Positions 6,129-29,765 of a stretch of DNA of 29,765 nt are shown piece by piece. Within the stretch, counting starts at the first letter, position 1, and each line of letters opens with the position of its first letter. The stretch spans positions 1 to 29,765 of the IMG/VR virus record IMGVR_UViG_3300030098_001842. One strand, given 5' to 3'. Position numbers and translations under genes: made by a program. The notes under the pieces were generated by a model. The model did no database searches. It was not told the DNA's origin and was given only the letters and a program-made list of their open reading frames with translations. This DNA is from a virus.

Positions 6129-7565
6129 ATGGGATTTGTAACCGGTGGGAGTTTTCCCGCATCGTTAGTTCCTAGTCAAAGACGAATGACGCTTTCAGAT
6201 AATTATCTGAATTTTGCTGATGGAACGTCTGATTGGGCACAACAATACTTACCTGAGCTTTATGAGCAGGAAGTAGAGAGATATGGTAACAGAACGTTGT
6301 CAGGTTTCTTAAGAATGGTTGGCGCTGAAATGCCAATGACATCTGACCAAATTATTTGGTCTGAACAAAATAGATTGCATGTAGCGTATAATCAAGTACG
6401 TTGTAATGCAGCTAATCAATTAACAGTCACTTTAACAGCTCCAGCTACTAATCATGTAGTTAAAGTTAATCAAACAATTTTGGTTTCTGATAATGCAACT
6501 GGATTGATTACACAAAAAGCAATTGTAACAGCGATTGGAGCTACTACAATTACAGCTACACCTTATGATAGTGTTTCTTTTAGTGCTGCTATTCAAGCGT
6601 TAAATGTAGCAGGTGATCTAAGTGTTTTTGTATATGGTTCAGAATGGGAAAAAGGATCTAACGATGCTACTACTATTTCTGTAACTCCAGGTTTTCAAGA
6701 GTATTCAAACTCTCCAATTATTATTAGAGATAAGTATCAAATCAATGGTTCTGATGCTGCTCAAATTGGTTGGGTTGAAGTTGCTACTGAAGACGGTACG
6801 TCAGGATACTTGTGGTACCTAAAGGCCGAATCTGAAACAAGATTAAGATTTGAAGATTATATGGAAATGGCGTTGGTTGAAGGTGAACTTGTTGGTCACA
6901 CTTTCTCTCCAGCTACATGGACAGCTAATGTAAAAGGTACACAAGGTTTATTCTCTGCTATTGAAGCAAGAGGTAACGTTTATCAAGGTTTTGCAGGTGC
7001 TGCTGCTCCAGGTTCTGGCGCAATGGCTGATTTCGATGAAATCCTTAAAAACTTAGATAAGCAAGGTGCTATTGAAGAAAACATGCTTTTCTTACAAAGA
7101 CAAACAGCTCTTGATTTTGACGATATGATCGCAGCTATGGCTGGTGGAGGTTATGCTTCTACTGCTGCAGCTTCTTATGGTCTATTTGACAATGAAGAAG
7201 AAATGGCGTTAAACTTTGGATTTTCTGGGTTTAGAAGAGGTTCTTATGACTTCTACAAAACTGATTGGAAATATCTAAATGACGCTTCTACTAGAGGTTT
7301 ATCTAAAGCAATTGATGGTGTTTTAGTTCCTGCTGGAACTTCAACAGTATACGATCAAATGTTAGGAGCTAATATCAGACGTCCATTTTTACACGTAAGA
7401 TATAGAGCTTCTGAAACTGAAGACAGAAGATACAAAAACTGGATCACTGGTTCAGTTGGTGGAGCTTACACTGATGGGGTTGATGCAATGTCTGTACATT
7501 TCTTAACTGAGAGATGTTTAGTAACTCAAGCAGCTAATAACTTTGTGTTATTCAAAGCGGTTTAA
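6129..7565 (+). CDS. Major capsid protein
   Basis: The protein has 478 residues, is not highly charged, is rich in Ala, Gly and Thr, and directly follows the scaffold. It would form the icosahedral shell. The N-terminal region contains L-P-E-L-Y-E-Q-E-V-E-R-Y-G-N-R-T-L-S-G-F, typical of the E-loop or N-arm part of phage capsids. A beta-rich insert follows at about 90-185 (repeated Thr/Val stretches such as Q-L-T-V-T-L-T-A-P-A-T), and then a core with G-Y-L-W-Y-L-K-A-E-S-E-T-R-L-R-F-E-D-Y. The C-terminus ends F-L-T-E-R-C-L-V-T-Q-A-A-N-N-F-V-L-F-K-A-V. An HK97 fold is expected for this position but cannot be shown by eye. The start follows an A/T-rich leader ending AAATT-ATG. A protease gene is not seen, so cleavage by a neighbour is not implied. 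Confidence 0.82.
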   Translation: MGFVTGGSFPASLVPSQRRMTLSDNYLNFADGTSDWAQQYLPELYEQEVERYGNRTLSGFLRMVGAEMPMTSDQIIWSEQNRLHVAYNQVRCNAANQLTVTLTAPATNHVVKVNQTILVSDNATGLITQKAIVTAIGATTITATPYDSVSFSAAIQALNVAGDLSVFVYGSEWEKGSNDATTISVTPGFQEYSNSPIIIRDKYQINGSDAAQIGWVEVATEDGTSGYLWYLKAESETRLRFEDYMEMALVEGELVGHTFSPATWTANVKGTQGLFSAIEARGNVYQGFAGAAAPGSGAMADFDEILKNLDKQGAIEENMLFLQRQTALDFDDMIAAMAGGGYASTAAASYGLFDNEEEMALNFGFSGFRRGSYDFYKTDWKYLNDASTRGLSKAIDGVLVPAGTSTVYDQMLGANIRRPFLHVRYRASETEDRRYKNWITGSVGGAYTDGVDAMSVHFLTERCLVTQAANNFVLFKAV

Positions 7566-7593
7566 TTTATTAACATTTTAAAATTTAGAAATT

Positions 7594-7959
7594 ATGCTTA
7601 TAAAAATCATAAACCCAAATACAAGTACATCAGAATTATCTGGTACTATACAAACTGGTAATATTATAGCGGACGTTAATGTTCCTATAGCTATTTCTGG
7701 TTATTCAGATAGTAATTCGTTATCATCATTTGATCTTGCTATTCAAGATCCTGCTGGTGGTGCACTTACAACTTTACAAATTCAATTTGATGGTGATATG
7801 GGAGCAACAATGCCTCAAGCTGTTATTGATGAACTAAATTCATTAGTAGAACTTGGCACAGAATCCATAAATATTCCTGAATTTAGAAGTGTAAATACGT
7901 CTAACGGTGTTTCCCCTGGTGGTGCACTTTATACTATTACTGGTCTTAGAATATCATAG
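7594..7959 (+). CDS. Small beta-rich protein after the capsid gene; possible head decoration protein
   Basis: I do not recognise this 121-residue protein. It is acidic to neutral, rich in Ser, Ile, Thr and Gly, with almost no Lys or Arg after the first residues, and alternates hydrophobic and polar residues as in a beta-sandwich. It lies 28 bases after the major capsid stop and ends just before a strong terminator, so it is expected to share the high expression of the capsid gene. Phages commonly keep a decoration or cement protein here, and that is the best guess. There is no signal peptide or membrane segment. Confidence 0.6.
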   Translation: MLIKIINPNTSTSELSGTIQTGNIIADVNVPIAISGYSDSNSLSSFDLAIQDPAGGALTTLQIQFDGDMGATMPQAVIDELNSLVELGTESINIPEFRSVNTSNGVSPGGALYTITGLRIS

Positions 7960-8844: not shown

Positions 8845-9861
8845 ATGGTAGACGTAAATACAGTTTATAAAACAGTATTATATATTCTCAATAAAGAACA
8901 AAGAGGATATGTAACACCAGATGAGTTTAATAAGTTAGGAGTTCAAGTACAAAGAGAAATCTTTGAACAATACTTTGATGAACTAAATCAACAATTACGT
9001 GTACCTCAAAATAATGATGAGTATGCTGATAGAGTTAAAAATTTAGAAGAAAAAATAGATATTTTTAAAAAATTTGACACTTGTACATATTCAAATCCAC
9101 ATTTTACTTTACCTTCCGATGTTCATCGTTTAGGTATATTGGCTTATAGAGAAAAAGAAATTCAAGAAATAGATAGAAGAAATCATTTGCTTGTAAATAA
9201 GTCATCATTAACAACTCCCACAAACTCAAATCCTTTATATATATTAGAAGGCACTGGATCTCCCTCCGCTGCTCCTAGCAAAGTTTTTGTATATCCTAAT
9301 AGTATTACTTCAGGTGTGACAGCTTATTATGTAAAAGCACCAATTGATCCTAGATGGGGTTATTCAGTGGGTAATTTAGGACAATATCTTTATGATAGCA
9401 CTACTTATGGAGCTAATTTATTAAATAACGGAGGAGTTTTAAGCTCTATATTAACAAACCCCACAGGTATTACTCCTGATAAAACTTACACAGGTTTAAC
9501 AACAACAGTTTCTCCAGCTGGTGGATCAGGTGCTGAGTTATCAGCAGTAGTTAGTGGAGGAACGGTGACATCTGTTACTGTAACTACACCAGGATCAGGA
9601 TATAGCGTTGATGATGTTATAACTGTGTCATCCGGACAATTTTTAGGTGCTCCAACTAGTGATTTAGATGTTACTTTAACTGCTGCAGATTTTAACTCAG
9701 GTAGTACTTATGGTTCAACTCAATTTGAGTTACATCCTTCCGAACAAACTAATATAATTTTACAAATATTAATGTACTGTGGAGTTATAATTAGAGATCC
9801 ACAAATAGTTCAAACTGCTGCTAGTTTAGTTCAGCAAGACGAAATGTTAGAAAAAAGTTAA
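8845..9861 (+). CDS. Head-tail connector/adaptor candidate with an inserted Gly-rich beta module
   Basis: The protein has 338 residues. The N-terminal 80 residues are helical (V-Y-K-T-V-L-Y-I-L-N-K-E-Q-R-G-Y-V-T-P-D-E-F), then a beta segment reads F-T-L-P-S-D-V-H-R-L-G-I-L-A-Y-R-E-K. The extreme C-terminus is helical again (E-L-H-P-S-E-Q-T-N-I-I-L-Q-I-L-M-Y-C-G). This helix-beta-helix arrangement between head and tail-tube genes fits a connector ring bound under the portal. Residues about 211-285 are an unlike segment rich in Gly, Ser, Thr and Val with P-G-S-G-Y-S-V-D-D-V-I-T-V, which looks inserted between core parts, since W-G-Y-S-V-G-N-L-G-Q-Y and the C-terminal helix flank it. The same GSGY pattern occurs in the nozzle protein at 11072. 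Function is inferred from position. Confidence 0.62.
   Translation: MVDVNTVYKTVLYILNKEQRGYVTPDEFNKLGVQVQREIFEQYFDELNQQLRVPQNNDEYADRVKNLEEKIDIFKKFDTCTYSNPHFTLPSDVHRLGILAYREKEIQEIDRRNHLLVNKSSLTTPTNSNPLYILEGTGSPSAAPSKVFVYPNSITSGVTAYYVKAPIDPRWGYSVGNLGQYLYDSTTYGANLLNNGGVLSSILTNPTGITPDKTYTGLTTTVSPAGGSGAELSAVVSGGTVTSVTVTTPGSGYSVDDVITVSSGQFLGAPTSDLDVTLTAADFNSGSTYGSTQFELHPSEQTNIILQILMYCGVIIRDPQIVQTAASLVQQDEMLEKS
9475..9700 (+). other. GSGY beta module inside the connector gene
   Basis: About 75 codons encode a Gly/Ser/Thr/Val-rich stretch with S-P-A-G-G-S-G-A-E-L-S-A-V-V-S-G-G-T-V-T, then P-G-S-G-Y-S-V-D-D-V-I-T-V-S. The pattern 'GSGA.l.a.v..GtvtsvtvttpGSGYsvdDvitv' is shared with the region at 11660-12195. 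Boundaries are approximate. Confidence 0.6.
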
Positions 9862-9867
9862 TAAAAT

Positions 9868-11067
9868 ATGGCTGCAATAAACGAAACAAACGAACAATAT
9901 TATAGTGGTACACAAATACTTCAGGCAGATGCAGCAGGAAGTGCTGGACAAGTTTTTACTTTTACTTTTGATACAGAACTATCTTTAGGCAGTGCTACAA
10001 GTTGGGATCCTACAGTTAATGAATATGCTTTAAATAATTTTAAAATATATACATCAGCAACAGGTACTCCTGGTACTTGGGTTGAATATATATTAGCTTA
10101 CACAGTAACTACTACACCTATAGGACCAAATGTAAATAGTTTAATAACTATCACAGCGGCTTTACCTTCTAACGTGTATGTTAAAGTAGAATTATCTACC
10201 ACTGCTTTAGAAAACAATTACGGTGGTTACGCATATATAACTATTGATGATATAGTAAATAATTTTTTAGTTGGATACGTTGGTACAGGTAAACTAATTT
10301 CAAATGTTCCTAGAACTGACGTTATATTTCATGCTAAAAGAGGTTTGCAAGAATTTAGTTACGATGTTTTAAAAAGTATAAAATGTCAAGAATTAATTAT
10401 TCCAGATAGTTTATCTTTAGTTATACCTCAAGACTATGTAAATTATGTTAAACTTTCATGGATAGATGATCTAGGAGTTCAACATATTATTTATCCTACC
10501 ACATTGACTACAAATCCTACAGAAATACCTATTCAAGACGAAGAAGGTATACCAACGCAAGATAATTTTGGTGCAAATGTTGAAGGAGATTCTATTACAG
10601 AAGATAGATGGGATAGTGCTAATATGAGAAGGATAAGTGGAAATATAGGTTTAATAAATGGTGGTGTGTACAACGATTGGTGGGGTAGAAATTTTATTGG
10701 AAAAAGATATGGATTAGAACCGTCATTAAGTCAAACCAATGGATGGTTTACAATAAACGAAAGAGAAAATAAATTTTCATTTAGTAGCAACCTTAAAGGT
10801 TTAGTAATTACTTTAGAATATTTATCTGATGGATTAGCTTATGATACTGATACTAAAGTTCCTAAATTAGCAGAAGAAGCAATGTACATGCATATAGCTT
10901 ACTCTATATTAGCAAGTAAAATTAATCAACCTGAGTACGTAGTTCAAAGGTACAAAAAAGATAGAAGAGCTGCTTTGAGAAATGCTAAAATTAGATTACA
11001 AGGTATGGGTAAATTTGAAGAGTTAACAAGAATAATGAGGAACAAATCTAAATGGATTAAACATTAG
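9868..11067 (+). CDS. Tail tubular protein A-like adaptor
   Basis: The protein has 399 residues. Residues 1-115 form a beta-rich domain (T-F-T-F-D-T-E-L-S, Y-V-K-V-E-L-S-T-T). It is followed by a conserved-looking core starting Y-I-T-I-D-D-I-V-N-N-F-L-V-G-Y-V-G, with V-I-F-H-A-K-R-G-L-Q-E-F-S-Y-D-V and I-P-Q-D-Y-V-N-Y-V-K-L-S-W. It ends in a basic helical C-terminus (R-Y-K-K-D-R-R-A-A-L-R-N-A-K). The helix-rich core with a central beta strand layer and the slot between connector and nozzle genes match T7 gp11, the gatekeeper ring between portal/connector and nozzle. The N-terminal beta domain is an addition relative to T7 gp11 (about 196 residues). It starts six bases after the previous stop with no Shine-Dalgarno. 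Confidence 0.65.
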   Translation: MAAINETNEQYYSGTQILQADAAGSAGQVFTFTFDTELSLGSATSWDPTVNEYALNNFKIYTSATGTPGTWVEYILAYTVTTTPIGPNVNSLITITAALPSNVYVKVELSTTALENNYGGYAYITIDDIVNNFLVGYVGTGKLISNVPRTDVIFHAKRGLQEFSYDVLKSIKCQELIIPDSLSLVIPQDYVNYVKLSWIDDLGVQHIIYPTTLTTNPTEIPIQDEEGIPTQDNFGANVEGDSITEDRWDSANMRRISGNIGLINGGVYNDWWGRNFIGKRYGLEPSLSQTNGWFTINERENKFSFSSNLKGLVITLEYLSDGLAYDTDTKVPKLAEEAMYMHIAYSILASKINQPEYVVQRYKKDRRAALRNAKIRLQGMGKFEELTRIMRNKSKWIKH

Positions 11068-18789: not shown

Positions 18790-21700
18790 ATGGATGAAGT
18801 AGAAAAATTATTTGAAGTTCTTAAAAGAGATGGTTATTATACTAAATCTTTTGAAGAGTTTAAAGAACAGTATGCTGACGAGTCTTATAGAGAGAAAATT
18901 TACGAAGTTATGTCTAGAGACAAATACTATACTAAATCTAGAGATGAATTTTTTCAACAATATAGTGTTGGTGATAATGATGTTGAAGTAGTTAAAACTC
19001 CCACTTATCAATCAACAACTTTAAAAACTAAAGATGATGAAGTAGTTGAAGAAGAAGAACAAGAAGTTGTTTTTGAACCTACTGAGGAGGGGAAATTTAA
19101 AGTTGGAATACAAGAAACAGAACAAATTGGAATACAAGAAACAGAACAAAAGAAACCTATTTCAACTAAAGAACATTTCAGTCCTCTTGAAGAAGAGGAT
19201 TTAGCAGATGATATAACTTTTGAAGAATTTGACAACGTTCCTGAGGAAGATTTACAAAAAACTTTGGAAAATCAATATCCTTGGTTAGAGTTTGATCAAC
19301 CTTTTATATACGACAGTAAATTAGGAGGTGGAGCTAATAGAGATGTTATTCAAGTTACAAACCCTCAAACCGGAGCTACGAAAGACTTTGATTTAGGTAC
19401 AGATTTTAATAGGCAGAGAAGTTTTACTACCAATCCATTAAGTAGTAAAGAATCTTACGATAACATGCTTAGTTTTATAAATGAACAAAGGTATGATAAA
19501 GAAGGGAATCCTAATAAAAATTATTTAGATCATTATAGTTCTACAAGAACTTATGGTCCTGATTATCTTATAGATGATCTCACAGCTCCAGGAGGTAAAA
19601 CTGAGCTCCCAGTTTCTAAAGAAGTAACTAGTGAAGCGCTTAGGTTGGTTAAGAGTGATCCTACTGGTAAACTTACTATGAAAAAAGCTATACAGCAAGT
19701 AGCAAATAGCCAATGGGGTCAAATGAATATTGCCTGGAAAACTGATTTTTATAATGATAAAAACTTTGAAAATGTAACATTGGTTAATGCTACTAAAGAT
19801 GCGGTTGAGAATGGAGATTTAAATATTAATATAACGACTACAGATCAAATAAATGATCCAAACCTAGTTCATGAAACTTATCAAACTCTACGAAAATTAG
19901 GAGTACCTGCAGAAGTTTTTAAAACAGATATAGATCAAGACTATTTAGAAGCATTGTACAATATAGATAGTGTTAATCCTGATCCAGCTGATGAACTTGT
20001 ATTTGAAAAATACCAGCGAACTAGAGACGCTCAAATTAAAGATCAAGTATATGAATATTTAAATACTACACAAAAAGGAAGATTAATATTACAAACTTAC
20101 AATGCTGTAGAAGAACAGAAAAATGTAGATGATATAGTTATTCCTATACAAAATAAAGTTAATGAAGAAGTTACAGCTGAAGATCCAAGGGTTGCTAAAA
20201 CAAAAAATATCATAAAATACTATAATCCAGACATTAATGAAGAGACAGCTGAAGCTACAGCTTTAGAAATGGTAAGAAACCAAGAGACTAATGATAGAAT
20301 AGACGCTAAAGTAAACGAGTACGGAGAAAAAGAATTTGAATGGCAAGTTAGGATGGGCTATGGAATGAATGCTGAAGATCTCAAAGCTTTAAAAGAAAAA
20401 GGTAAAAAGGCTAAAACTCCAGAAGAACTTGAAGCTTATAGAGCAGAAGTAAGAGATCTAGTTAATGATGGGAAAATTAATTTATTAAGAAATCCTGATG
20501 GAACTTTTGTTGATCAAACTTTACAACAACAAACAGACGCTTTAAAAGATAACAAAAAACTAGGATCTTTACTTGATGAATACATGTATCAAAGTTCTGA
20601 TGAACTAACTCAAGAACTGTTTAACATGAACAATCAATTAAAGGTTTATGCTAAAGATATATTAAGAGAAGGTTACGGTAATACTATGGTTGATGCTACT
20701 CTTGCTCAGCAGTTAGGCGAAGGCTTAAGCTTCTTAACAGGTTGGGCAACTGTTGGTAGCACTAAAGGGTTACCTGGTAGTGCATACAGAGATTTTGAAA
20801 ATATAGATGATTGGATTAATGGTTCTGAAGAAATGCCTATAGGTTTAACTACATTACCCGAATCAGCAAGTGCTAGTAAAACAGTTAAAAATTACAACGA
20901 TCTTTTAGAGAAAAGAGCTACATTATTGTTAGCAAAAGAACTAAATGTAAATCCAATGACGTTTGGTAAGCATGATTGGGGTGTTGTTAGAGCTGCACAC
21001 TCATTCGGACAAGAACTTATCCCTGCTCTTGGTGGTAGATATATGGGTGAAGAAGAAATGAGGAGTAATGCTTTAGATATATACGAAAATGCTTTTGGAA
21101 TAACAAGAACTGAAAGTCAAGACTTTATAGCTAACCATTTAGGAGGTTATGAGAAAGCAGGAAGTGCAACAGCTAATTTGGTAGTCATGGCAGGTGAAAT
21201 GGCTTTAACATATCCTTTATTTGGAGGAGCTAGAAGTTTGACCAAAGGAATCTATTTAATGGCTGAAGCTGGTTTAACTAGTATATCTAAAAAAGCAGCA
21301 TTAAGTCCAGGGTTTATTAAATCTTTATCTAAATATACTTCTCATGTAGGAACTGAATATGTAGGTTTAGTAGGGAGTAATATAATGGAGCGTAATATAT
21401 TTAATAGAGAAGGTATACATAATCCATTATTGTTTGCTGCTGGAGCAGGAGGTGCTAGAGCTGTGTTTGCTAAAGGAGGAGAGATGTATAACCAAGCTGT
21501 TAAAGAAGCCGCTAAAGTAAACCCTAGATTAAGAGAGAGTTTACTATGGGTTAGTCAACAAGAGATGACAGCTAATGTAGAAGGAGCTTTAAAACTCAAG
21601 GCTATAGCTCAATCAGGAACGAGAAATATAATAGTAAAACCCACTCTTATAGGTGGTGAAGCTTTAACAGGAGCAATAGGTATAAAAGCTGGTGAAGGTG

Positions 21701-24700
21701 CTGCTGGAGTAGTGGATGTAGTTGAAGGTAAAAAAACAATGAGTCAGTTGTGGAATGAAATAACTGATGTTGATTCATTATTAGAAACAGCTGCTGCTTT
21801 AGTCTTTATGAAAGTTAGTAGACCTGATCAATATGTAAACAAAGCAGTAGAAGATTTTTACGCAGAGGTTGATCTTATAGCAGGTAATAATCCTGCTTGG
21901 AATAGAATGCGTGACGCTATTGGATTAAAAAGGTTGTCTCCTAAAGAAGCTGCTAAAGCGTCTGAAGATCCTAATTATGAATTAACTATTACTGACGCAT
22001 ATAATAAAAAACTTCAAGAAATTCAAAAAGGTGAAGGAGATTATGAAGGACTTAGCAAAGAAGAGTTAGATCAAGCTACTGATAATTTAAACTATCAATA
22101 TAATAGGTTATTAATGAAACCTGAGTTAGATCGATTAGCCAAAATGTACAAAGCTGAAGATGGTATTATAGGTTCTTATACTGACTTAGAACTAGCTTCT
22201 TTAAACATAGCTGAAGGTAGTATGAATGCAAAAGATTTATTAACTATTGCTTCTACCCCAAGTGGAGGATCGTCTGCGGTCCTACAATTAATGGCTAATG
22301 GTTATACTGAAAAAATAGCTACACAAATCTATGATTTTGCTGTAAATCAAAAAGCTATAGGTATGGAACTATTTGCAGGAGATTTAAGAAGTAAACCATT
22401 TCAAAACTATGTTAAAGAATCAATTAGACTCAACGAGTTAATTAGTGAAAAACGTACACTAGAAGACACATATAAGAACAATAAAATAGATAAAGCGGCT
22501 TATGAAATTAAAAATGAGAATTTAGATAAAGCCATCGATGCAGCTGTCGCTACTCAAAAAATAAATATTAAAAAAGCTCAGTTTGATAGACAAGTAAAAG
22601 AATCTAAAACCATACAAGAACTTAAAGATAAAGGTTTTAATGTTATAGAAGTAGATAACAAAGGAATGAAAGAGTTCAAAGAAAAAGGTGGAGAAGATTT
22701 TGTAGAAACTGAATTTGGTTTACAAGGTATTGACAAAGCAACTGGACAAGGTGTTATGGTAGTTAACACTGAAGCTACCAAAAAGTATGGAGTAGGTGGA
22801 ACAGCTACTCATGAAGTGTGGCACTTTGGTTGGGAGAGAAAACTAGGAGATCAAGCTCTTGCTAAAAGAGCTGAAGAGGTTGGAGAAGAACAAGCTAATG
22901 CAGAAGCTAGAGAATACATACAAAATTTTACAGATGGTTTAAAAAAGAGAGGAATATACGATGTTGTAGAAGCTGAAATGCTTCAACGTAAAGGATTTCA
23001 AGAAGCTACATGGAGAAAAGTTCTAGAAGGTGAACAAGTCCCAATGTCAGAAATGAAAGAGTTTATAAATGAGTTTATTCAATTAGATAAAAATGGATCG
23101 TTTGACGCTGCTAAAACTGATGCACAAGTTAAAGCTTCTAAAAGACAAGAAGGTAAAAACATAACTGAAGCTGAATACAAAGCTGCTATGGCAGATCCTG
23201 CTAAATTTGTAGACTTTGTTTTAAGTGGTAAATATAAATCTAAAAATATAAATGACTTCTTAAAAGCAGAGCAAGATGCTTATACAAAAGAATTTGGTGG
23301 AAAGAAAGAAACTACAACTCAAAAATCTGAAAAAACAGATAAAGTTGTAATTTCTAAATCTAATAAAGAAATAGCTGATAGAAATACTGAAATAGAGAAA
23401 AAGATAATAAAAGCTGGAGATAGTAGAGTTAGAGATATTAAAGATCAAGAGTTGTCTGCAGAAATTAAAAAAGAATTATCTGAAAACAATATAGGTAAAG
23501 CTAGACAGTTAGCTAACCAAGCAGCTAAAAGTCCTGGCGCCATGGCTTTAGAACCTAGCAAAAGAGTTTCAGCAGAAGAATTTAGATCTGGATATGAAGA
23601 ACAATTGGCTAGATTAATTGATACTTATAAACCTATCGTGAATGGTAAGCGTATACCTTTTGGTGCTTACATGCAGAAGAATTTAAAAAGAAGATATGGT
23701 CAAATACTTCAACAAGCTAAAAGAGGTAAGTTCGAAGGTAAAGAAAAAAGATTAGGACAAGAACGAGCTGAAGGAGAAAAAGAGTTTGATGTAGTAGATC
23801 CAGACGCACAAAGAGCTGTTGAATCTGTAGGTGAAAGTAAATCACTTGAACCTACAAAAACTGATAGACAAATTAGTGTTTTTGAAGGTAGACAAGCTAA
23901 AGCTAAAGAAAAGCAAATTGTAGATATATTTAAAGGATTAACAGAGGTTGATTTAGTAAATAGATCTAAAAAAGGCTTAGGTGGTACTCCAACAGAAGAA
24001 TTAACTAAGGTTGCTGAATTATTATTTGATTTAAAAGATGGAGGTAAAGTAACTAACTTGTCTAAGTCTTCATACCCTAGTGTTGATTTAGTAAATCCTA
24101 AGACTGGTAAAAAACTTACGCCAGCTCAAATCAAAAAAGGAGTTAAAGGTATAATAGACGCTAAAGATTTTGTAAACATTAGGGATTACTTTAAAGATGT
24201 TAATAATCTAGATAGATATTTAAAGACAATGCCTGAGTATAATATAACAGGTGATAGGTCTAGAATAAATGATAAAGGGGAAACTATTGAAGTATCACCA
24301 GATGTTAAAGGTAAAGGTTTAAGATTAACTGACAGAGTGTATGATTACTTTTACGAACCATTTATAAACCACCCAAGTAAACCTGGTTATAATCCTAAAT
24401 TAATACAAACTACACCAGGAGGTAGAAGTAAAGGTAAGACAACTCAACCATTTGTTAAAAGATTAAAGCCAGAATTTAGAGGTAAAATATCTCCAGAAGT
24501 AATTAAAAAACTTAGAGAAGATTTATTATTAGATACTAAGGTTGAAGATCTCATTAAAATATATGATAGAACCAAGCATGGCCAACTAATAAAAGGCATG
24601 GCCAAACTTGAGACAATGAAAGTTGCTAACGAAGCCACAAGAAAAGGATTGCCTAAAGATACTGAGTTGAGTAAAAAATTAACTGCAGATACTAGAGCTG

Positions 24701-27700
24701 GAGGTAGTGATTTTGCAGCTTCAGAGCGTGTAAATAAAAAAGCTATAGAAGAAATAAGAAAAAAGATTATATCACGTTCTTTTGTAAGTGAAATGCAAGG
24801 AATGGCAAATTGGATCAAGAGCTTTGCTAAAGATATGGATATAGCAATTGCTAAAGAAATTGGTTCGGATGGCAATGTAAGAGATCTAATTGGTCAACAA
24901 AGATTATCTGATTTTGCTTCTAAAGTTTTAAGTAAATATTTTGGAGAGTCAATACTAAGTGGTCAAACTTGGTCAAACACAAAGCTTGGAAAAGGCATGT
25001 GGTTTTCTACTGACCTTAGAAATAAAGTATTAGAAGAGTTTAGAAAAGAGCAAAAAGATCTTGGGATTCCATTAACTACTAAAGAATACAACGCTTTAAA
25101 ACTACTAATGGGAAGTCCTGGATTAGATCCTATGAAGACTAATCCATTTGGTGGTAAGCAAAGTGGGAAATGGATAGAAAAAGTTAATAGAAATTATGAA
25201 GGATTAGATTTATTTATAGATCAAACATTTAAAATGTTAAAAGAAAACCCAGAGTATTTAGGAGAATTTTTAGCTATGATGAAAGGATCTTCTTCTTCAA
25301 ATTCTCATTTTTGGAGAAATGCATCTCAAGTTATAGGTAAACATAAAAATTGGGCTGATAAAGCAATGATAAATCCTAAGAAAAAAGGTGTAGGAGTAGG
25401 AGAACATGCTTTAGTTCAAAATCAAGCAGCTGAATTTATGACTAAAGCTATATTAGAATCTATAGCTCGTGGTAATCTTAAAGCAAAAAATATTGCTAAA
25501 AAATTATTAAATGAAAATTACTTTCAAATATTAATTAGTCATGGACTTGATGGTAAATTAACTCAAATCGGTTTACAATCTAGTATGCCTAAAGGTTTTT
25601 GGGAAAGTTGGAATAAAGCTTTAGAAACAGGAGACGTAAACAAAGCTTGGTCAGTATGGTCTAGATATTTTAATGAAAAAATAAATAAAATTAAAGGAGC
25701 AGATGGAGAATTTGGATTTGATCCTAATAAAATAGATTTGCTTAACAGAAAAACTGGAGAAGTTGAGAGTCTAGCAGACATATTAAAAATAGGCAGAAAA
25801 GAATTTGGAAAAGACATTTTAAATCCAGAGATAATAGCTAAACAACAAGAGTTAATAGCCAAATGGTCTACAAGACAAGAAGGATTTACTAAACCAGAGC
25901 AACTAAGGGAAAGACTAGCTATTGAACTAGATATGTTAAACGCTAAGCGAGATGCTACGTTAGAGACAATGAAGGATATATCAGAATTAAATAATCCTAT
26001 ATTCAACATGTCTGAGCGTATGCCAAATAAATCACTAGTGGAAGAAGCTAATAAATTTGATAAGGCATTAGCTAACGCTAGAAAAATTAAAAAAGAAGTT
26101 AAAAAAGCTAGAGTTTTTGACTTTGATGATACTGTAGCTAGAACGAATAGCAAAGTATTTGCAGAAAGAGCAGGGGAAAGAATAGAGCTAACGGCAGAAG
26201 AGTTTGCTGCGCGTGGAGACGTATTACTAGCTGAAGGATATAAAATGGATTTTTCTGATTTTAACAAAGTTGTTGAAGGAAAGAAAGGACCATTATTTGA
26301 TGTTATGAAAAAGATGAAAGAGGCTGCAGGCGATAGAGATATGTTTATCTTAACTGCTAGAGCTCCTGAATCTGCTCCAGCTATTAAACAGTTTTTAGAT
26401 GCTATGGGCATCAAAATACCTTTAGAAAATATAACTGGACTAGGTAATTCAACTGGCAAAGCTAAAGCTGACTGGTTAGTTGAAAAAGCAGCCGAAGGTT
26501 ATAATGATTTCTATTTTGCAGATGACGCACCTCAAAATGTGAAAGCAGTTAGAGATGCTATGGAAGTATTAGATGTTAAATCTAAAGTTCAACAAGCGAG
26601 AATGAATGCTAGTGAAAGACTTAACAAGAGATTTAATGAGATACTAGAACATTCTACGGGTATTGGTAAGGACAAAGTGTTTTCAGATGTTAAAGCTGAG
26701 ATTAGAGGAAATGAAGCTAGAAGACAAAAGTTTTTTATACCTCCATCAGCAGAAGATTTTACTGGTTTACTCTATAGAACATTAGGTAAAGGTAAGAAAG
26801 GAGAACAAGCAATGAATTTTTATAAAGAAAATCTTCTTGATCCTTATACTAGAGCAATGGAAAATTTGTCTACAGATAGGGTTAATTTAATGGCTGATTT
26901 CAAAGAATTGAAAAAAGAATTAAAAGTTCCTAAAGAATTAAAGAAAACTACAAAGTCAGGATTTAAAAGAGAAGACGCAGTGCGAGTTTATATTTGGCAA
27001 AAAACCGGTAAAGAAATTCCTGGTTTAGCTAAAAAAGATTTAGCAGAATTAAACAAAATAATGGAAAGTGATCCTAGACTTCAAGCTTTTGCAGATCAAA
27101 TTTTAACTTTAACTAAAGGTGATGGTTATTCAACTCCTGGTAAGGATTGGAATGCTGGTACTATTACAACCGATTTAATTGAGTTATTAAATAAAACTAA
27201 AAGAGCAAAATATTTAACTGAGTGGAAAGAGAATGTTGACGTTATATTTTCTAAGAAAAATTTGAATAAATTAGAAGCTGCTTATGGTAAGAAATATAGA
27301 GAAGCTTTAGAAAATTCTTTAACTAGAATGAAACAAGGAACTAATAGAACTAGTTCAGGAAATAAATTAAGTAATCAGGTATTAGACTATGTTAATAACG
27401 CTACTGGTACTATAATGTTCTTGAATGCTAGATCTGCAGTTCTTCAAACTATATCTGCTGCTAACTTTACTAATTGGACCTTTAATAATCCATTGAAGAT
27501 GGGTAAAGCTTTCGCAAACCAACCTCAGTATTGGAAAGATTTTGTTGAATTAATAAATTCAGATTATTTAAAAGATAGAAGAAACGGTTTGAAACTAAAC
27601 ATTTCTGAATCTGAAATAGCTAACGCCGCTAAAACTTCCAAGAATAAAGCTAGAGCTGTTATGGGTTATATATTAGAAAAAGGTTATTTACCTACAAAGT

Positions 27701-28842
27701 TTGCTGATAGTTTTGCTATTGCTTCAGGTGGCGCGATGTTTTATAGGAATAGAATAAATGATTTAATTAAAAATCATGGTAAAACAGAAGCAGAGGCTAA
27801 GAAAATAGCAATGGAAGAGTTTAGAAAAGTATCTGAAACTTCTCAACAGTCATCAGATCCTAGTAAAATATCTCAACAACAAGCTAGTGATTTAGGTAGA
27901 ATAGTTTTATCTTTTGCAAACACTCCAATGCAGTATGCTCGTATACAAAAAAGGGCAATACAAGATATAGCAAATGGTAGAGGAAGTAATAAAGAAAATA
28001 TAAGTAAAATAATTTATTATGGATTTTTACAAAATATAATGTTTAATGCTCTTCAACAAGGTTTGTTTGCTTTAGGTTTTGGAGATGGAGAAATCAGAGA
28101 CAAGGAAGAAGAAAAAATAATTAACAGTTTAAATGGAATGGTAGACTCTCAATTAAGAGGTTTAGGCATGGCAGGCGTTACAATTCAAGTGATTAAAAAT
28201 TTAGGTATAGATATATATAGAAGATCACAACGGGTAAGACCAGATTTTAGTGACGCATGGCAAAAGCTATTAGAATTTTCACCAGCTATCAAAAGTAAAT
28301 TATCTAAATTTAAAGGAGCGGCATATCCTTTTGATTCTAAAAAACGTAGACAAAAAGTGTTCGATAAAGGGTTTAGTTTAGATAATCCTGCTTATGAATC
28401 CCTTGCTAAGGTGGTAAGTGGCGTTACTAATTTTCCTTTAGATAGATTATATAGTAAAGTTAACAATTTACAAGCAGCGGCAAATGAAAATACTGAAACT
28501 TGGAAAGCGGTTGCCCTTACTTTAGGTTGGCCAGAATGGCAATTAGAAAGTGGAAGGGAAAAAGAAGAAAAGAAATCGATAGATTTATATAATAAAGCTG
28601 AACAAGTCAACATTCTTAAACAATATGGTTTAACTGAAACTGAAATAAAAAAATTAAAAAACGAAGACCAAAGAGTTAAAAAAATAGAAGCACTTAGAAA
28701 GAAAACAAATAAAATATACATTCCTAAAAATGTAAAAAAAGAAGAAAATAAAACTAAAGAAAAGAAAGCTAAAGAAAAGAAAAAATCTAGTCCATTTTCT
28801 ACACGTTTAAAAAATAAAAAACTTACTACAACATTTAATTAA
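18790..28842 (+). CDS. Giant polyvalent virion/ejected protein with zincin-like, sigma-like and HAD regions
   Basis: One uninterrupted frame gives 3350 residues (near 380 kDa). In order: two 30-residue Y-Y-T-K-S repeats (1-58); an acidic linker with an exact 8-residue duplication (about 105-120); a long helical part; Gly/Ala-rich hydrophobic stretches (about 790-1017) that may touch membranes; an HExxH motif (H1341-E-V-W-H1345); a sigma-70 region 2-like stretch (about 1590-1650); more helical sequence; a HAD phosphatase domain (about 2438-2590) with all four motifs; a block with F-F-I-P-P-S-A-E-D-F-T-G-L-L-Y (about 2645); a long hydrophobic helical module near 3020-3105; and a basic tail. Giant multi-enzyme proteins carried in virions are known as 'polyvalent proteins', and this fits. 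It is probably injected with the DNA. A tape-measure role is less likely because of the enzyme motifs and the podovirus-like neighbours. Confidence 0.82.
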   Translation: MDEVEKLFEVLKRDGYYTKSFEEFKEQYADESYREKIYEVMSRDKYYTKSRDEFFQQYSVGDNDVEVVKTPTYQSTTLKTKDDEVVEEEEQEVVFEPTEEGKFKVGIQETEQIGIQETEQKKPISTKEHFSPLEEEDLADDITFEEFDNVPEEDLQKTLENQYPWLEFDQPFIYDSKLGGGANRDVIQVTNPQTGATKDFDLGTDFNRQRSFTTNPLSSKESYDNMLSFINEQRYDKEGNPNKNYLDHYSSTRTYGPDYLIDDLTAPGGKTELPVSKEVTSEALRLVKSDPTGKLTMKKAIQQVANSQWGQMNIAWKTDFYNDKNFENVTLVNATKDAVENGDLNINITTTDQINDPNLVHETYQTLRKLGVPAEVFKTDIDQDYLEALYNIDSVNPDPADELVFEKYQRTRDAQIKDQVYEYLNTTQKGRLILQTYNAVEEQKNVDDIVIPIQNKVNEEVTAEDPRVAKTKNIIKYYNPDINEETAEATALEMVRNQETNDRIDAKVNEYGEKEFEWQVRMGYGMNAEDLKALKEKGKKAKTPEELEAYRAEVRDLVNDGKINLLRNPDGTFVDQTLQQQTDALKDNKKLGSLLDEYMYQSSDELTQELFNMNNQLKVYAKDILREGYGNTMVDATLAQQLGEGLSFLTGWATVGSTKGLPGSAYRDFENIDDWINGSEEMPIGLTTLPESASASKTVKNYNDLLEKRATLLLAKELNVNPMTFGKHDWGVVRAAHSFGQELIPALGGRYMGEEEMRSNALDIYENAFGITRTESQDFIANHLGGYEKAGSATANLVVMAGEMALTYPLFGGARSLTKGIYLMAEAGLTSISKKAALSPGFIKSLSKYTSHVGTEYVGLVGSNIMERNIFNREGIHNPLLFAAGAGGARAVFAKGGEMYNQAVKEAAKVNPRLRESLLWVSQQEMTANVEGALKLKAIAQSGTRNIIVKPTLIGGEALTGAIGIKAGEGAAGVVDVVEGKKTMSQLWNEITDVDSLLETAAALVFMKVSRPDQYVNKAVEDFYAEVDLIAGNNPAWNRMRDAIGLKRLSPKEAAKASEDPNYELTITDAYNKKLQEIQKGEGDYEGLSKEELDQATDNLNYQYNRLLMKPELDRLAKMYKAEDGIIGSYTDLELASLNIAEGSMNAKDLLTIASTPSGGSSAVLQLMANGYTEKIATQIYDFAVNQKAIGMELFAGDLRSKPFQNYVKESIRLNELISEKRTLEDTYKNNKIDKAAYEIKNENLDKAIDAAVATQKINIKKAQFDRQVKESKTIQELKDKGFNVIEVDNKGMKEFKEKGGEDFVETEFGLQGIDKATGQGVMVVNTEATKKYGVGGTATHEVWHFGWERKLGDQALAKRAEEVGEEQANAEAREYIQNFTDGLKKRGIYDVVEAEMLQRKGFQEATWRKVLEGEQVPMSEMKEFINEFIQLDKNGSFDAAKTDAQVKASKRQEGKNITEAEYKAAMADPAKFVDFVLSGKYKSKNINDFLKAEQDAYTKEFGGKKETTTQKSEKTDKVVISKSNKEIADRNTEIEKKIIKAGDSRVRDIKDQELSAEIKKELSENNIGKARQLANQAAKSPGAMALEPSKRVSAEEFRSGYEEQLARLIDTYKPIVNGKRIPFGAYMQKNLKRRYGQILQQAKRGKFEGKEKRLGQERAEGEKEFDVVDPDAQRAVESVGESKSLEPTKTDRQISVFEGRQAKAKEKQIVDIFKGLTEVDLVNRSKKGLGGTPTEELTKVAELLFDLKDGGKVTNLSKSSYPSVDLVNPKTGKKLTPAQIKKGVKGIIDAKDFVNIRDYFKDVNNLDRYLKTMPEYNITGDRSRINDKGETIEVSPDVKGKGLRLTDRVYDYFYEPFINHPSKPGYNPKLIQTTPGGRSKGKTTQPFVKRLKPEFRGKISPEVIKKLREDLLLDTKVEDLIKIYDRTKHGQLIKGMAKLETMKVANEATRKGLPKDTELSKKLTADTRAGGSDFAASERVNKKAIEEIRKKIISRSFVSEMQGMANWIKSFAKDMDIAIAKEIGSDGNVRDLIGQQRLSDFASKVLSKYFGESILSGQTWSNTKLGKGMWFSTDLRNKVLEEFRKEQKDLGIPLTTKEYNALKLLMGSPGLDPMKTNPFGGKQSGKWIEKVNRNYEGLDLFIDQTFKMLKENPEYLGEFLAMMKGSSSSNSHFWRNASQVIGKHKNWADKAMINPKKKGVGVGEHALVQNQAAEFMTKAILESIARGNLKAKNIAKKLLNENYFQILISHGLDGKLTQIGLQSSMPKGFWESWNKALETGDVNKAWSVWSRYFNEKINKIKGADGEFGFDPNKIDLLNRKTGEVESLADILKIGRKEFGKDILNPEIIAKQQELIAKWSTRQEGFTKPEQLRERLAIELDMLNAKRDATLETMKDISELNNPIFNMSERMPNKSLVEEANKFDKALANARKIKKEVKKARVFDFDDTVARTNSKVFAERAGERIELTAEEFAARGDVLLAEGYKMDFSDFNKVVEGKKGPLFDVMKKMKEAAGDRDMFILTARAPESAPAIKQFLDAMGIKIPLENITGLGNSTGKAKADWLVEKAAEGYNDFYFADDAPQNVKAVRDAMEVLDVKSKVQQARMNASERLNKRFNEILEHSTGIGKDKVFSDVKAEIRGNEARRQKFFIPPSAEDFTGLLYRTLGKGKKGEQAMNFYKENLLDPYTRAMENLSTDRVNLMADFKELKKELKVPKELKKTTKSGFKREDAVRVYIWQKTGKEIPGLAKKDLAELNKIMESDPRLQAFADQILTLTKGDGYSTPGKDWNAGTITTDLIELLNKTKRAKYLTEWKENVDVIFSKKNLNKLEAAYGKKYREALENSLTRMKQGTNRTSSGNKLSNQVLDYVNNATGTIMFLNARSAVLQTISAANFTNWTFNNPLKMGKAFANQPQYWKDFVELINSDYLKDRRNGLKLNISESEIANAAKTSKNKARAVMGYILEKGYLPTKFADSFAIASGGAMFYRNRINDLIKNHGKTEAEAKKIAMEEFRKVSETSQQSSDPSKISQQQASDLGRIVLSFANTPMQYARIQKRAIQDIANGRGSNKENISKIIYYGFLQNIMFNALQQGLFALGFGDGEIRDKEEEKIINSLNGMVDSQLRGLGMAGVTIQVIKNLGIDIYRRSQRVRPDFSDAWQKLLEFSPAIKSKLSKFKGAAYPFDSKKRRQKVFDKGFSLDNPAYESLAKVVSGVTNFPLDRLYSKVNNLQAAANENTETWKAVALTLGWPEWQLESGREKEEKKSIDLYNKAEQVNILKQYGLTETEIKKLKNEDQRVKKIEALRKKTNKIYIPKNVKKEENKTKEKKAKEKKKSSPFSTRLKNKKLTTTFN
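18805..18963 (+). repeat. Two Y-Y-T-K-S repeats at the N-terminus of the giant protein
   Basis: Residues 6-28 and 36-58 repeat with a 30-residue period: K-L-F-E-V-L-K-R-D-G-Y-Y-T-K-S and K-I-Y-E-V-M-S-R-D-K-Y-Y-T-K-S, each followed by an acidic helix with F and Y (E-E-F-K-E-Q-Y, D-E-F-F-Q-Q-Y). The DNA is only moderately similar, so the duplication is old. Such a helix-turn-helix-sized pair could be a docking motif at the virion's inner surface. Confidence 0.75.
19103..19150 (+). repeat. Perfect 24-base tandem duplication in the giant gene
   Basis: Two identical 24-base units (19103-19126 and 19127-19150) encode G-I-Q-E-T-E-Q preceded by Val in the first and Ile in the second. It lies in an acidic, probably disordered linker and keeps frame, as expected for a recent slippage event. 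Confidence 0.9.
22741..22900 (+). other. HExxH zincin-like motif in the giant protein
   Basis: Residues 1341-1345 read H-E-V-W-H (22810-22824) inside G-G-T-A-T-H-E-V-W-H-F-G-W. The preceding small-residue strand and following helix fit a zinc metallopeptidase active site, with E1342 as base and both His as ligands. A third ligand is not certain. The glutamates in K-E-F-I-N-E-F about 90 residues later are candidates for a gluzincin arrangement. Confidence 0.55.
23560..23745 (+). other. Sigma-70 region 2-like stretch in the giant protein
   Basis: Residues about 1590-1650 contain Q-L-A-R-L-I-D-T-Y-K-P-I-V-N-G-K-R-I-P-F followed by G-A-Y-M-Q-K-N-L-K-R-R. This follows the sigma-70 region 2 pattern, where a D-K-Y-D-P loop is followed by G-x-x-F-S-T-Y-A and a basic I-R-R helix. 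The paired aromatic residues that melt promoter DNA in true sigma factors are replaced by K-N, so activity is doubtful. Confidence 0.35.
26101..26560 (+). other. HAD-superfamily phosphatase domain in the giant protein
   Basis: All four HAD motifs are visible. Motif I is F-D2444-F-D2446-D-T2448 (nucleophile and acid-base Asp). Motif II is T2522 in F-I-L-T-A-R-A. Motif III Lys is K2557 or K2559 in T-G-K-A-K-A-D-W. Motif IV is D2578-D2579 in Y-F-A-D-D-A-P-Q-N. A helical cap fits between motifs I and II. The substrate cannot be told. Polynucleotide 3'- or 5'-phosphatases and nucleotidases share this arrangement. Confidence 0.8.
27390..28100 (+). other. Hydrophobic helical C-terminal module of the giant protein
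   Basis: Residues about 2868-3104 include A-T-G-T-I-M-F-L-N-A-R-S-A-V-L-Q-T-I-S-A and R-I-V-L-S-F-A-N-T-P-M-Q-Y-A-R, then I-I-Y-Y-G-F-L-Q-N-I-M-F-N-A-L, ending L-F-A-L-G-F-G-D. Such phrases recur, from memory, near the ends of large proteins of marine phages. The hydrophobic helices could insert in the inner membrane during ejection. Confidence 0.5.
28754..28783 (+). repeat. 15-base tandem repeat in the basic tail of the giant gene
   Basis: Two units of CTAAAGAAAAGAAAG/A encode K-E-K-K-A and K-E-K-K-K within a Lys/Glu-rich tail. Only the last base differs. The tail probably binds DNA or other virion parts by charge. Confidence 0.75.
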
Positions 28843-28846
28843 CAAA

Positions 28847-29203
28847 ATGGTAAAAGTTAATGAAAATACAGAAGTAAAATTAGATCTTAAAACTATTATT
28901 AGTATTATTGTTATTACAGCTTCATTTGTAGGTATGTATTTTACTTTACAGTCTGATATTGAAGTAGCTAAACAACTGCCACCAAGTGAGATTAATAGAA
29001 TTGAATATGATTTAAAACATGAAGTATACGAAAACAGACTTGATCAATTAGAAGAAACAGTGGAAATAATATTTAAATTAGGTATTGAGTTAGATAAAGA
29101 GTTACATATTTTAGATGCTGATTATAATAGTAATATGGATTCTAAAATTAAAGAAATTGAGTCTAAAATAAAAGCGACTAATAAAAAAAGAAAAAGAAAA
29201 TGA
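28847..29203 (+). CDS. Small single-TM coiled-coil membrane protein; possible lysis or ejection-associated protein
   Basis: The protein has 118 residues. A short charged N-terminus precedes one membrane segment (residues about 15-34, T-I-I-S-I-I-V-I-T-A-S-F-V-G-M-Y-F-T). A hydrophilic helical region follows, likely coiled coil (E-E-T-V-E-I-I-F-K-L-G-I-E-L-D-K-E-L), and a basic end (K-K-R-K-R-K). One TM segment with a charged coiled-coil tail is compatible with a spanin-like or holin-like protein, but no family can be named. It starts five bases after the giant gene's stop with no Shine-Dalgarno. Its stop overlaps the next start as ATGA. Confidence 0.65.
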   Translation: MVKVNENTEVKLDLKTIISIIVITASFVGMYFTLQSDIEVAKQLPPSEINRIEYDLKHEVYENRLDQLEETVEIIFKLGIELDKELHILDADYNSNMDSKIKEIESKIKATNKKRKRK

Positions 29204-29442
29204 ATGAAGTGTTAAATTTAGTAAAAGAATTTGGGTTACCATTGGTAATAGCTATAGGCGCTTTATACGCTTTATATAAATTTTTCTTTTTCAGTGTAAG
29301 AGAAGTTAAAGATACATTTACAAAGAGACATGAGATAAATGCTAAGAAAATGGAAGAAGTAAAAATTACACTAGCAGAAATTAAATCTGATTTAAAACTA
29401 TTAATAGAGTTTATTAAAGAAATAAATAACAAAAGAAAATGA
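29200..29442 (+). CDS. Holin-like small membrane protein
   Basis: The protein has 80 residues. A membrane segment spans residues about 12-32 (G-L-P-L-V-I-A-I-G-A-L-Y-A-L-Y-K-F-F-F-F), and a charged helical tail follows (R-H-E-I-N-A-K-K-M-E-E-V-K). Size, single TM and charged coiled-coil tail recall BhlA/UviB-type holins, which permeabilise the inner membrane at lysis. The start overlaps the previous stop by four bases, and its own stop overlaps the next start the same way. An endolysin is not in the window, so the lysis role is tentative. Confidence 0.6.
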   Translation: MNEVLNLVKEFGLPLVIAIGALYALYKFFFFSVREVKDTFTKRHEINAKKMEEVKITLAEIKSDLKLLIEFIKEINNKRK

Positions 29443-29765
29443 AACACTTACTAACTTTAATATTTACTTTACTTATTATATTGGGATATTCTCAATGTGA
29501 TAATGGAACTAATTACTATCCTAGCACTATATATACTCCAGCTGACAATACCTGGGGTTCTGCTACTAGTTGGAACTACGCGGGTGAAGTTATTAGAGTT
29601 AATATAGTTTCGGGAGATGAATATGAATTTTCTACATGTGATGGATACGGAGGGGTTTTAGCTTCATATGACACACAACTAACGTTAATAGATGAATCTG
29701 GTATAGTTGTGGGATTTAATGATGACTATACAGGTTGTACAGGATATACTTCATATTTAAAATAT
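29439..29765 (+). CDS. Secreted protein with flavobacterial-type signal peptide, 3' cut by window edge
   Basis: An open frame of 109 codons runs to the last base without a stop. It starts at the ATG of an ATGA overlap with the preceding holin-like gene. Residues 1-19 form a signal peptide (M-K-H-L-L-T-L-I-F-T-L-L-I-I-L-G-Y-S-Q), probably cut after Gln, as in many Bacteroidota secreted proteins. The following C20 does not fit a lipobox (Y-S-Q-C). The mature part is Tyr/Thr/Gly-rich and beta-like, with phrases E-Y-E-F-S-T-C-D-G, D-T-Q-L-T-L-I-D-E-S-G and G-F-N-D-D-Y-T-G-C. These resemble bacterial pre-peptidase C-terminal-like (PPC) beta-sandwiches found in secreted flavobacterial enzymes and adhesins. 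A phage gene with such a product may be host-derived and may coat or modify the cell surface. The end of the protein is unseen. Confidence 0.75.
   Translation, partial: MKHLLTLIFTLLIILGYSQCDNGTNYYPSTIYTPADNTWGSATSWNYAGEVIRVNIVSGDEYEFSTCDGYGGVLASYDTQLTLIDESGIVVGFNDDYTGCTGYTSYLKY

Follow-up and report, generated by a model that had tools for sequence, protein, structure and literature searches.

A host-derived protein from the 3' end of the late gene block of a marine Bacteroidota phage is a probable cargo of the host type IX secretion system

Introduction

Why would a phage end its late gene block with a gene for a secreted protein of host type? The question is raised by the window, the whole stretch of DNA analysed here, which is an entire virus record of 29,765 bases and ends inside this gene. 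From the analysis described below we consider, with a probability of roughly 0.6, that the last three ORFs of the window (w14, w15, and w16) form the 3' end of the late block of a marine Bacteroidota phage and that w16 is host-derived and exported by Sec and the host type IX secretion system (T9SS). To our knowledge, the type IX secretion machine is restricted to Bacteroidota and close relatives.

Results

Arrangement of the late genes

The genes ahead of the trio in the window encode several virion structural proteins besides a terminase (phrog_6681) and a portal protein (phrog_6547), and also the giant protein w13. The features at the 3' end are as follows.

18790..28842, plus strand: w13, a giant late gene of 3350 aa directly upstream of the trio; its stop lies 4 bases ahead of w14
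28847..29203, plus strand: w14, 118 aa; one N-terminal hydrophobic segment, then a charged coiled-coil-like tail
29200..29203, plus strand: ATGA overlap of the w14 stop and the w15 start, from the ORF calls
29200..29442, plus strand: w15, 80 aa; one hydrophobic segment, then a charged helix
29439..29442, plus strand: ATGA overlap of the w15 stop and the w16 start, from the ORF calls
29439..29765, plus strand: w16, N-terminal 109 residues, open at the window end; full-length relatives have 283-515 aa
29439..29492, plus strand: predicted Sec signal peptide of w16 (residues 1-18), cleavage expected before Q19 according to the Bacteroidota Q-rule
29493..29765, plus strand: PPC-like beta-sandwich domain of w16, start only, from the model of the relative L018 and PPC-family structural matches

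The three ORFs and both overlaps of four bases were found as the first-pass annotation had claimed. ATGA overlaps are common in phage operons and alone prove little; translational coupling may lead to the three products being made together, and the trio is probably expressed late. Including the window, w16 was found on 22 contigs, and in 12 of them the ORF upstream overlaps w16 by exactly 4 bases; two contigs show a 1-base overlap, and the other eight have a gap at this place or gave no ORF ahead of w16. Apart from the window, one contig (L002/L028) was seen to have the exact order w14-w15-w16.

Within w13, residues 2433-2606 are polynucleotide-kinase-like (phrog_415, E 2.3e-6); otherwise the protein has nearly no recognised domain.

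The two predicted small membrane proteins belong to lysis neighbourhoods

The description of w14 and w15 as small membrane proteins is based on the one hydrophobic segment read from each sequence. Searches of the window trio against PHROGs and Pfam gave nothing usable, the best families being phrog_20984 for w14 and phrog_18771 for w15, both listed as function unknown. The former was also the best family for 16 of 18 w14 members; one member each weakly matched a holin family and an Rz-like spanin family. One of 14 w15 members showed a weak match to the holin family phrog_4898 (E 0.04), and w15 may be called holin-like by its layout only.

The gene neighbours were more informative. In viral contigs 533 relatives of w14 were confirmed by tblastn, of which 80 were kept, and 78 loci with a w14 ORF were counted, allowing one intervening ORF and checking domains by Pfam on examples. 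The upstream neighbour was an Amidase_2-like endolysin in 48 loci and an M15 peptidase in two, i.e. an endolysin in 50/78, whereas the others showed a w13-like giant (19), another gene (6), or the contig end (3). From this we infer that w14, together with w15 when present, belongs to lysis neighbourhoods, and w14 is probably a membrane protein of such a neighbourhood. An amidase or M15 gene similar to those beside w14 elsewhere was searched for in the window and not found. The earlier assignment of w14 and w15 as lysis or envelope proteins is thus backed by the endolysin directly upstream in these 50 loci but hardly by direct similarity to holins.

The w16 protein carries a predicted signal peptide and PPC-like fold

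Relatives of w16 were identified on 21 other viral contigs, 16 at first and five in a later search. Three copies are cut, the window's among them, and 19 are complete. The full protein could therefore be described from the complete relatives but not from the window's own copy, as the record ends at 29765. The protein consists of a signal peptide, a PPC-like domain, usually a second beta domain, an Fn3-like domain, and a C-terminal tag; the second beta domain is absent from the forms of about 285 aa (L029, L030, L032, L050, and L052-L054). Modelling of the full-length protein (474 aa) gave a structure of limited reliability (pLDDT 70.9, pTM 0.39) with generic beta-sandwich matches in the PDB, which was used solely to describe w16 as a probable string of beta domains.

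The N-terminus of w16 shows a lysine near the start, a hydrophobic core, and a Q|C site, as judged by eye and by the Q-rule. The pair Q19-C20, which follows the hydrophobic core, does not vary in any row of two alignments (17/17 and 20/20). A glutamine directly before the cysteine does not make a lipobox, and w16 accordingly appears to have none. According to PMC5837995 the Bacteroidota signal peptidase exposes a glutamine after cleavage (the Q-rule), and the invariant Q19-C20 therefore fits a Bacteroidota signal peptide. The signal peptide proposed for w16 is hence borne out, and with it w16 possesses the Sec signal expected of T9SS cargo.

An AlphaFold2 model of the N-domain was obtained for residues 1-145 of L018 (pLDDT 81.5, pTM 0.75; model ma50ed62e7ce4). 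This model matches the PPC/collagen-binding structure 3jqw (Z 9.4, 101 residues aligned, rmsd 2.6) and the PPC-family structure 5sv5 (Z 9.2, 97 residues aligned, rmsd 2.8). A PPC beta-sandwich fold is thus predicted for the N-domain, Z values of this size showing fold and not function. The top structural match is the lysozyme inhibitor PliG (Z 10.5, 8% identity), slightly above the PPC domains, and a role as exported lysozyme inhibitor is possible. In Pfam the PPC family (PF04151) was not matched by the window copy, and the best relative, L032, reached 13.7 bits against a cut-off of 25.9. The PPC-like character claimed previously hence holds for the predicted fold but not for the Pfam score.

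Two kinds of C-terminal tag

A C-terminal type IX secretion signal had been proposed as a feature to look for, and it was found in relatives. Three of the 19 complete w16 copies (L021, L024, and L027) end in a canonical T9SS type A domain with scores above the curated NCBIfam and Pfam cut-offs (TIGR04183, 26.6-28.9 bits, cut-off 23; PF18962, 38.3-38.6 bits, cut-off 27). The other 16 end in a tail of about 40 residues. No T9SS model matched the short-tail w16 copies scanned, i.e. among nine relatives searched with NCBIfam and Pfam and 20 records searched with TIGR04183. TIGR04183 exceeded its cut-off in 6/20 w16 records, in three of these within a second cargo gene. The short tail is present in the complete relatives closest to the window's w16 (90-94% identity in the part that both have), and the window copy, which is cut before its C-terminus, would probably end in a tag of this kind. 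It is not filed as type A cargo, since its C-terminus lies beyond the record end.

The stretches L063 1-2792, L064 1-2423, and L065 440-3198, on the contigs of L052, L054, and L031, respectively, contain the second T9SS type A cargo gene and, after a 4-base overlap, a gene for a signal-peptide protein of 353-362 aa with an outer-membrane-barrel-like end (by eye); a Pfam scan of this protein in L063 gave no family.

The short tail is also used by marine Flavobacteriales

A tail profile built from phage sequences only matched in three of four marine Flavobacteriales metagenome-assembled genomes (MAGs), with a best E of 1.9e-9. After addition of four host rows, which match by construction, the profile gave 77 matches in 24/39 genomes of one marine Flavobacteriales family. 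Across the phylum, any match was found in 6/247 genomes, and only two were strong, one of them in the centre genome. Weak, partial matches at the phylum level (L072-L075, 22-25 bits) look like cross-hits to type A C-terminal domains (CTDs) and were dropped from the host counts.

In all 24 host proteins whose ORF start lies inside the fetched locus the tail match ends 1-6 residues from the C-terminus. By a crude rule 20/24 of these tail proteins seem to bear a signal peptide, compared with 16/40 neighbouring control ORFs. The passengers are diverse, with PHA-depolymerase-like, thioredoxin-like, beta-propeller, and beta-glucanase-like proteins among them. In ten host proteins scanned, the tail lay outside all NCBIfam matches.

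We considered two alternatives for the tail. First, it could be a compact T9SS signal; second, it could be a degenerate remnant or a dimerisation element, in which case most w16 proteins would stop in the periplasm. The main reason for the first reading is that the same passenger swaps tail and type A domain in phages as well as in hosts. On w16 the two alternate (16 versus 3 of 19), and so they do on the host homologues of the PHA depolymerase, of which 28 were recovered from 30 loci out of 67 matches: the short tail closes 12 of them and a type A CTD another 12, while four have neither by profile, two of which look like type A or cut type A by eye. The position at the very C-terminus in 24/24 proteins likewise argues against a remnant or dimerisation element. 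That second alternative is favoured by the length of the tail, about 40 residues compared with about 100 for type A CTDs (PMC12618676), and by the profile comparison with 26 type A CTDs, in which the tail aligned in register without reaching significance (Prob 0.2, E 0.22). This comparison thus gave no statistical homology of the short tail to type A CTDs.

The presence of the secretion system in the hosts does not help in the decision. Type A cargo was found in 39/39 genomes of the tail-sharing family and the T9SS core protein SprA in 37/39, this being the family that shares tail and N-domain with the phage; co-occurrence with T9SS therefore cannot discriminate. Published accounts describe the T9SS CTD types A, B, and C as having about 100 residues or more (PMC10202324, PMC12618676), and no short signal type was found in the literature searched. 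On balance the tail is likely to be a compact T9SS signal, judging from these sequence comparisons, and we regard the remnant or dimerisation element as rather unlikely. At the host loci L070-L104 the tail may mark a class of exported enzymes overlooked by current models.

w16 is of host origin and reshuffled among phages

Relatives of the N-domain, 49-55% identical, occur in four marine Flavobacteriales MAGs. These homologues are chromosomal, adjoining a gene which we take to be that of a tRNA-modification GTPase-like protein. Two of them, L044 and L045, are long, and by eye their ends resemble T9SS domains of type B. The short tail is borne by the host proteins L091-L094, and L091 shows ahead of it an Fn3-like segment resembling the C-terminal half of w16 (by eye). 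The host-like character attributed to w16 is supported by the chromosomal homologues of its N-domain and by the use of the tail in the same order. Its capture from a host with export to the surface is well supported by these homologues, by the signal peptide, and by the C-terminal tags of the relatives. Contamination with host DNA was set aside as a source, w16 being present on 22 virus records with phage neighbours. In 12 pairs dN/dS was 0.07-0.23, which indicates purifying selection and speaks against a decaying gene.

Compared with L018, the window shows 57% identity in w14 and 94% in w16; compared with L032, 86% in w14 and 61% in w16. From these discordant values it follows that w16 is reshuffled among phages. 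In L024, L026, L052, L053, and L054 w16 has different neighbours, and no lysis gene beside w16 was recognised by eye in L024, L026, L027, L052, and L054. The statement that such a protein is rarely seen in late phage operons was too strong, since the 22 contigs that carry w16 represent several backbones and similar places are taken by other T9SS cargo.

Deposited phages gave no megablast match to the late region and no tblastn match for w14 or w15; only the Fn3-plus-tail half of w16 was matched, in four uncultured huge phages. In LR745206, a 635-kb uncultured phage, an ORF with an Fn3-like segment and the short tail was found (L322 2974-3417); the part of it that was read shows neither a clear start nor a signal peptide.

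Further exported or surface-related proteins were noted around w16. Small signal-peptide proteins with MORN-like repeats (by eye) lie near or overlap w16 (L052 8852-9229; L054 8801-9175; L024 10122-10523, minus strand) and represent another exported host-like type in these phages. In L029, glycosyltransferase-like and sulfotransferase-like ORFs (6953-7615 and 8953-10819; by eye) flank w16, possibly as a surface-modifying set.

The cargo gene beside w15 is exchangeable

For w15, 177 relatives were confirmed and 80 kept. Among the 14 contigs with w15 relatives of at least 76% identity, several of which are mutually related so that the counts are not independent, T9SS-tagged cargo is the next gene in nine and none is present in five. 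This rules out that w15 always travels with T9SS cargo. The cargo is w16 in L002/L028 and L012/L021 and a different protein in L003, L004, L005, L010, L011, L013, and L014. The latter proteins contain MAM (L003, L005, L010, and L014) and PKD-like domains (L005), and in L004 and L013 the cargo is cut by the contig end. In the remaining 66 kept loci no type A or short-tail cargo was found by profile, though one of them, L015/L147, encodes a type B cargo (CHU_C, 66.7 bits) two genes after w15. The w15 ORF had been lost to a filter in 12/80 loci; L135 and L143 were judged from other data, and the other ten count only as showing no cargo by profile in the stretch read.

In the 19 loci with a w13-like giant, w14 is followed within two ORFs by a tail-bearing w16 in ten, by another protein with a signal peptide, truncated where the contig stops, in one (L217), and by neither in eight.

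Discussion

How could w16 act? In the model that we propose, the small membrane proteins w14 and w15 form part of the lysis neighbourhood, and w16, a host-derived beta protein of several domains, leaves the cytoplasm by Sec. Its C-terminal tag would then take it across the outer membrane via the host type IX secretion system, and it would be displayed on the infected cell or shed from it. There, at a late stage of infection, it may block surface receptors by masking or jamming them. Virions set free would then not be lost on the dying cell or its fragments, and later phages would be excluded.

This purpose, receptor masking or jamming with superinfection exclusion, is the one we favour, if only tentatively. 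It is favoured because the cargo is of binding type, is without a recognised catalytic domain, and varies between phages, and because w16 is probably made together with the lysis proteins, at the time when loss of progeny to debris matters most. The position of w16 at the end of the late block speaks against exclusion, as exclusion proteins are usually early according to PMC9586334.

Three other roles were weighed against masking. As an adhesin or matrix protein, w16 could change the stickiness of infected cells or debris and aid spread. Its PPC- and Fn3-like layout and the MAM, PKD, and P-domains on cargo in comparable places are all typical binding modules. No ligand is known, however, and the gain for a lytic phage just before lysis is unclear, so that we hold this role to be somewhat unlikely.

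Alternatively, w16 could be an exported helper of lysis or particle release which, once holin and endolysin have acted, carries out a third step at the outer membrane. Several contigs show it overlapping w14 or w15, a gene with PG_binding_1 and Amidase_2 domains comes two genes after it in L053, and other cargo genes also adjoin w15. Nevertheless, no lytic, pore-forming, or fusion domain was found in any of the nine relatives scanned, and the new lysis route suggested in the first-pass annotation is left unsupported. Similar domains make up ordinary host surface proteins, several copies of w16 are not beside lysis genes, and most w14 loci are without cargo (T9SS cargo within three genes in 10/78). 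A helper of lysis therefore seems improbable.

Finally, w16 could be a virion protein, such as a tail fibre or a receptor-binding protein. Its gene comes after those of virion proteins within one block, tail proteins often contain Fn3 domains, and the structural matches in BFVD include some tail proteins. Nevertheless, virion proteins that are put together in the cytoplasm normally lack Sec signals, and the invariant Q|C pattern, the C-terminal secretion tag, and the chromosomal surface proteins found as host homologues make a virion protein very improbable.

Phage-encoded T9SS cargo as such is already known (PMC7468147, PMC6949934). In the cryoconite phage 'Cryophage', T9SS type A sorting domains are described on phage genes and vary between phage variants; the cargo comprises endoglucanase, GH39, and PA14 proteins, and was called a unique occurrence (PMC7468147). 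The authors suggested that the phage hijacks the host T9SS and that the cargo acts in competition or superinfection. The w16 family is probably likewise phage-encoded T9SS cargo; it differs from the account of this one phage and its type A CTDs in its PPC/Fn3 make-up, in its spread over 22 contigs of several backbones, in its frequent place next to lysis genes, and in the short tail that most copies bear. In gut phage lineages T9SS sorting-domain proteins are reported beside BACON-domain proteins near head genes (PMC6949934). They share with w16 the sorting domains in phage proteins; unlike w16, that set has BACON domains, and the account there describes no lysis-linked location. Compared with T9SS type A cargo in general (TIGR04183/PF18962), w16 has the Sec signal and a C-terminal tag, above the cut-off in three complete copies, whereas the tail of about 40 residues stands instead in 16/19. 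With PPC/collagen-binding domains the N-domain shares the predicted fold (Z 9.2-9.4), below the Pfam cut-off and with the PliG match ranking higher.

For masking, the nearest parallel is Llp of phage T5, a small superinfection-exclusion lipoprotein of the host outer membrane, which is described as blocking adsorption to infected cells and fragments (PMC9586334). The likeness, a placement at the outer membrane which stops adsorption, is only proposed for w16; Llp is a lipoprotein whereas w16 seems to lack a lipobox, and no homology is known between the two. In the published literature searched we found no marine w16 family, no exchangeable cargo in a lysis neighbourhood, no short tail, and no follow-up of the idea of T9SS hijack by phages, put forward in 2020 for one phage.

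Taken together, and as a still speculative picture, marine Bacteroidota phages may keep a cargo slot in the lysis neighbourhood for swapped, host-derived surface proteins with Sec signal and T9SS tag. Most w16 proteins would carry the compact tag of about 40 residues, an unmodelled T9SS class common to one marine Flavobacteriales family, and the host machine would recoat the dying cell, sparing the progeny.

Should the tail prove to be a T9SS signal, a far shorter tag than thought would suffice for export, and cargo predictions for marine Flavobacteriales would miss a class of exported enzymes. Likely hosts could then also be read from the tail itself for phages that have not been cultured. 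A passenger that naturally occurs with either tag type provides a ready-made test set, and in the w16 family one can ask concretely how the secretion machine of Bacteroidota benefits phages.
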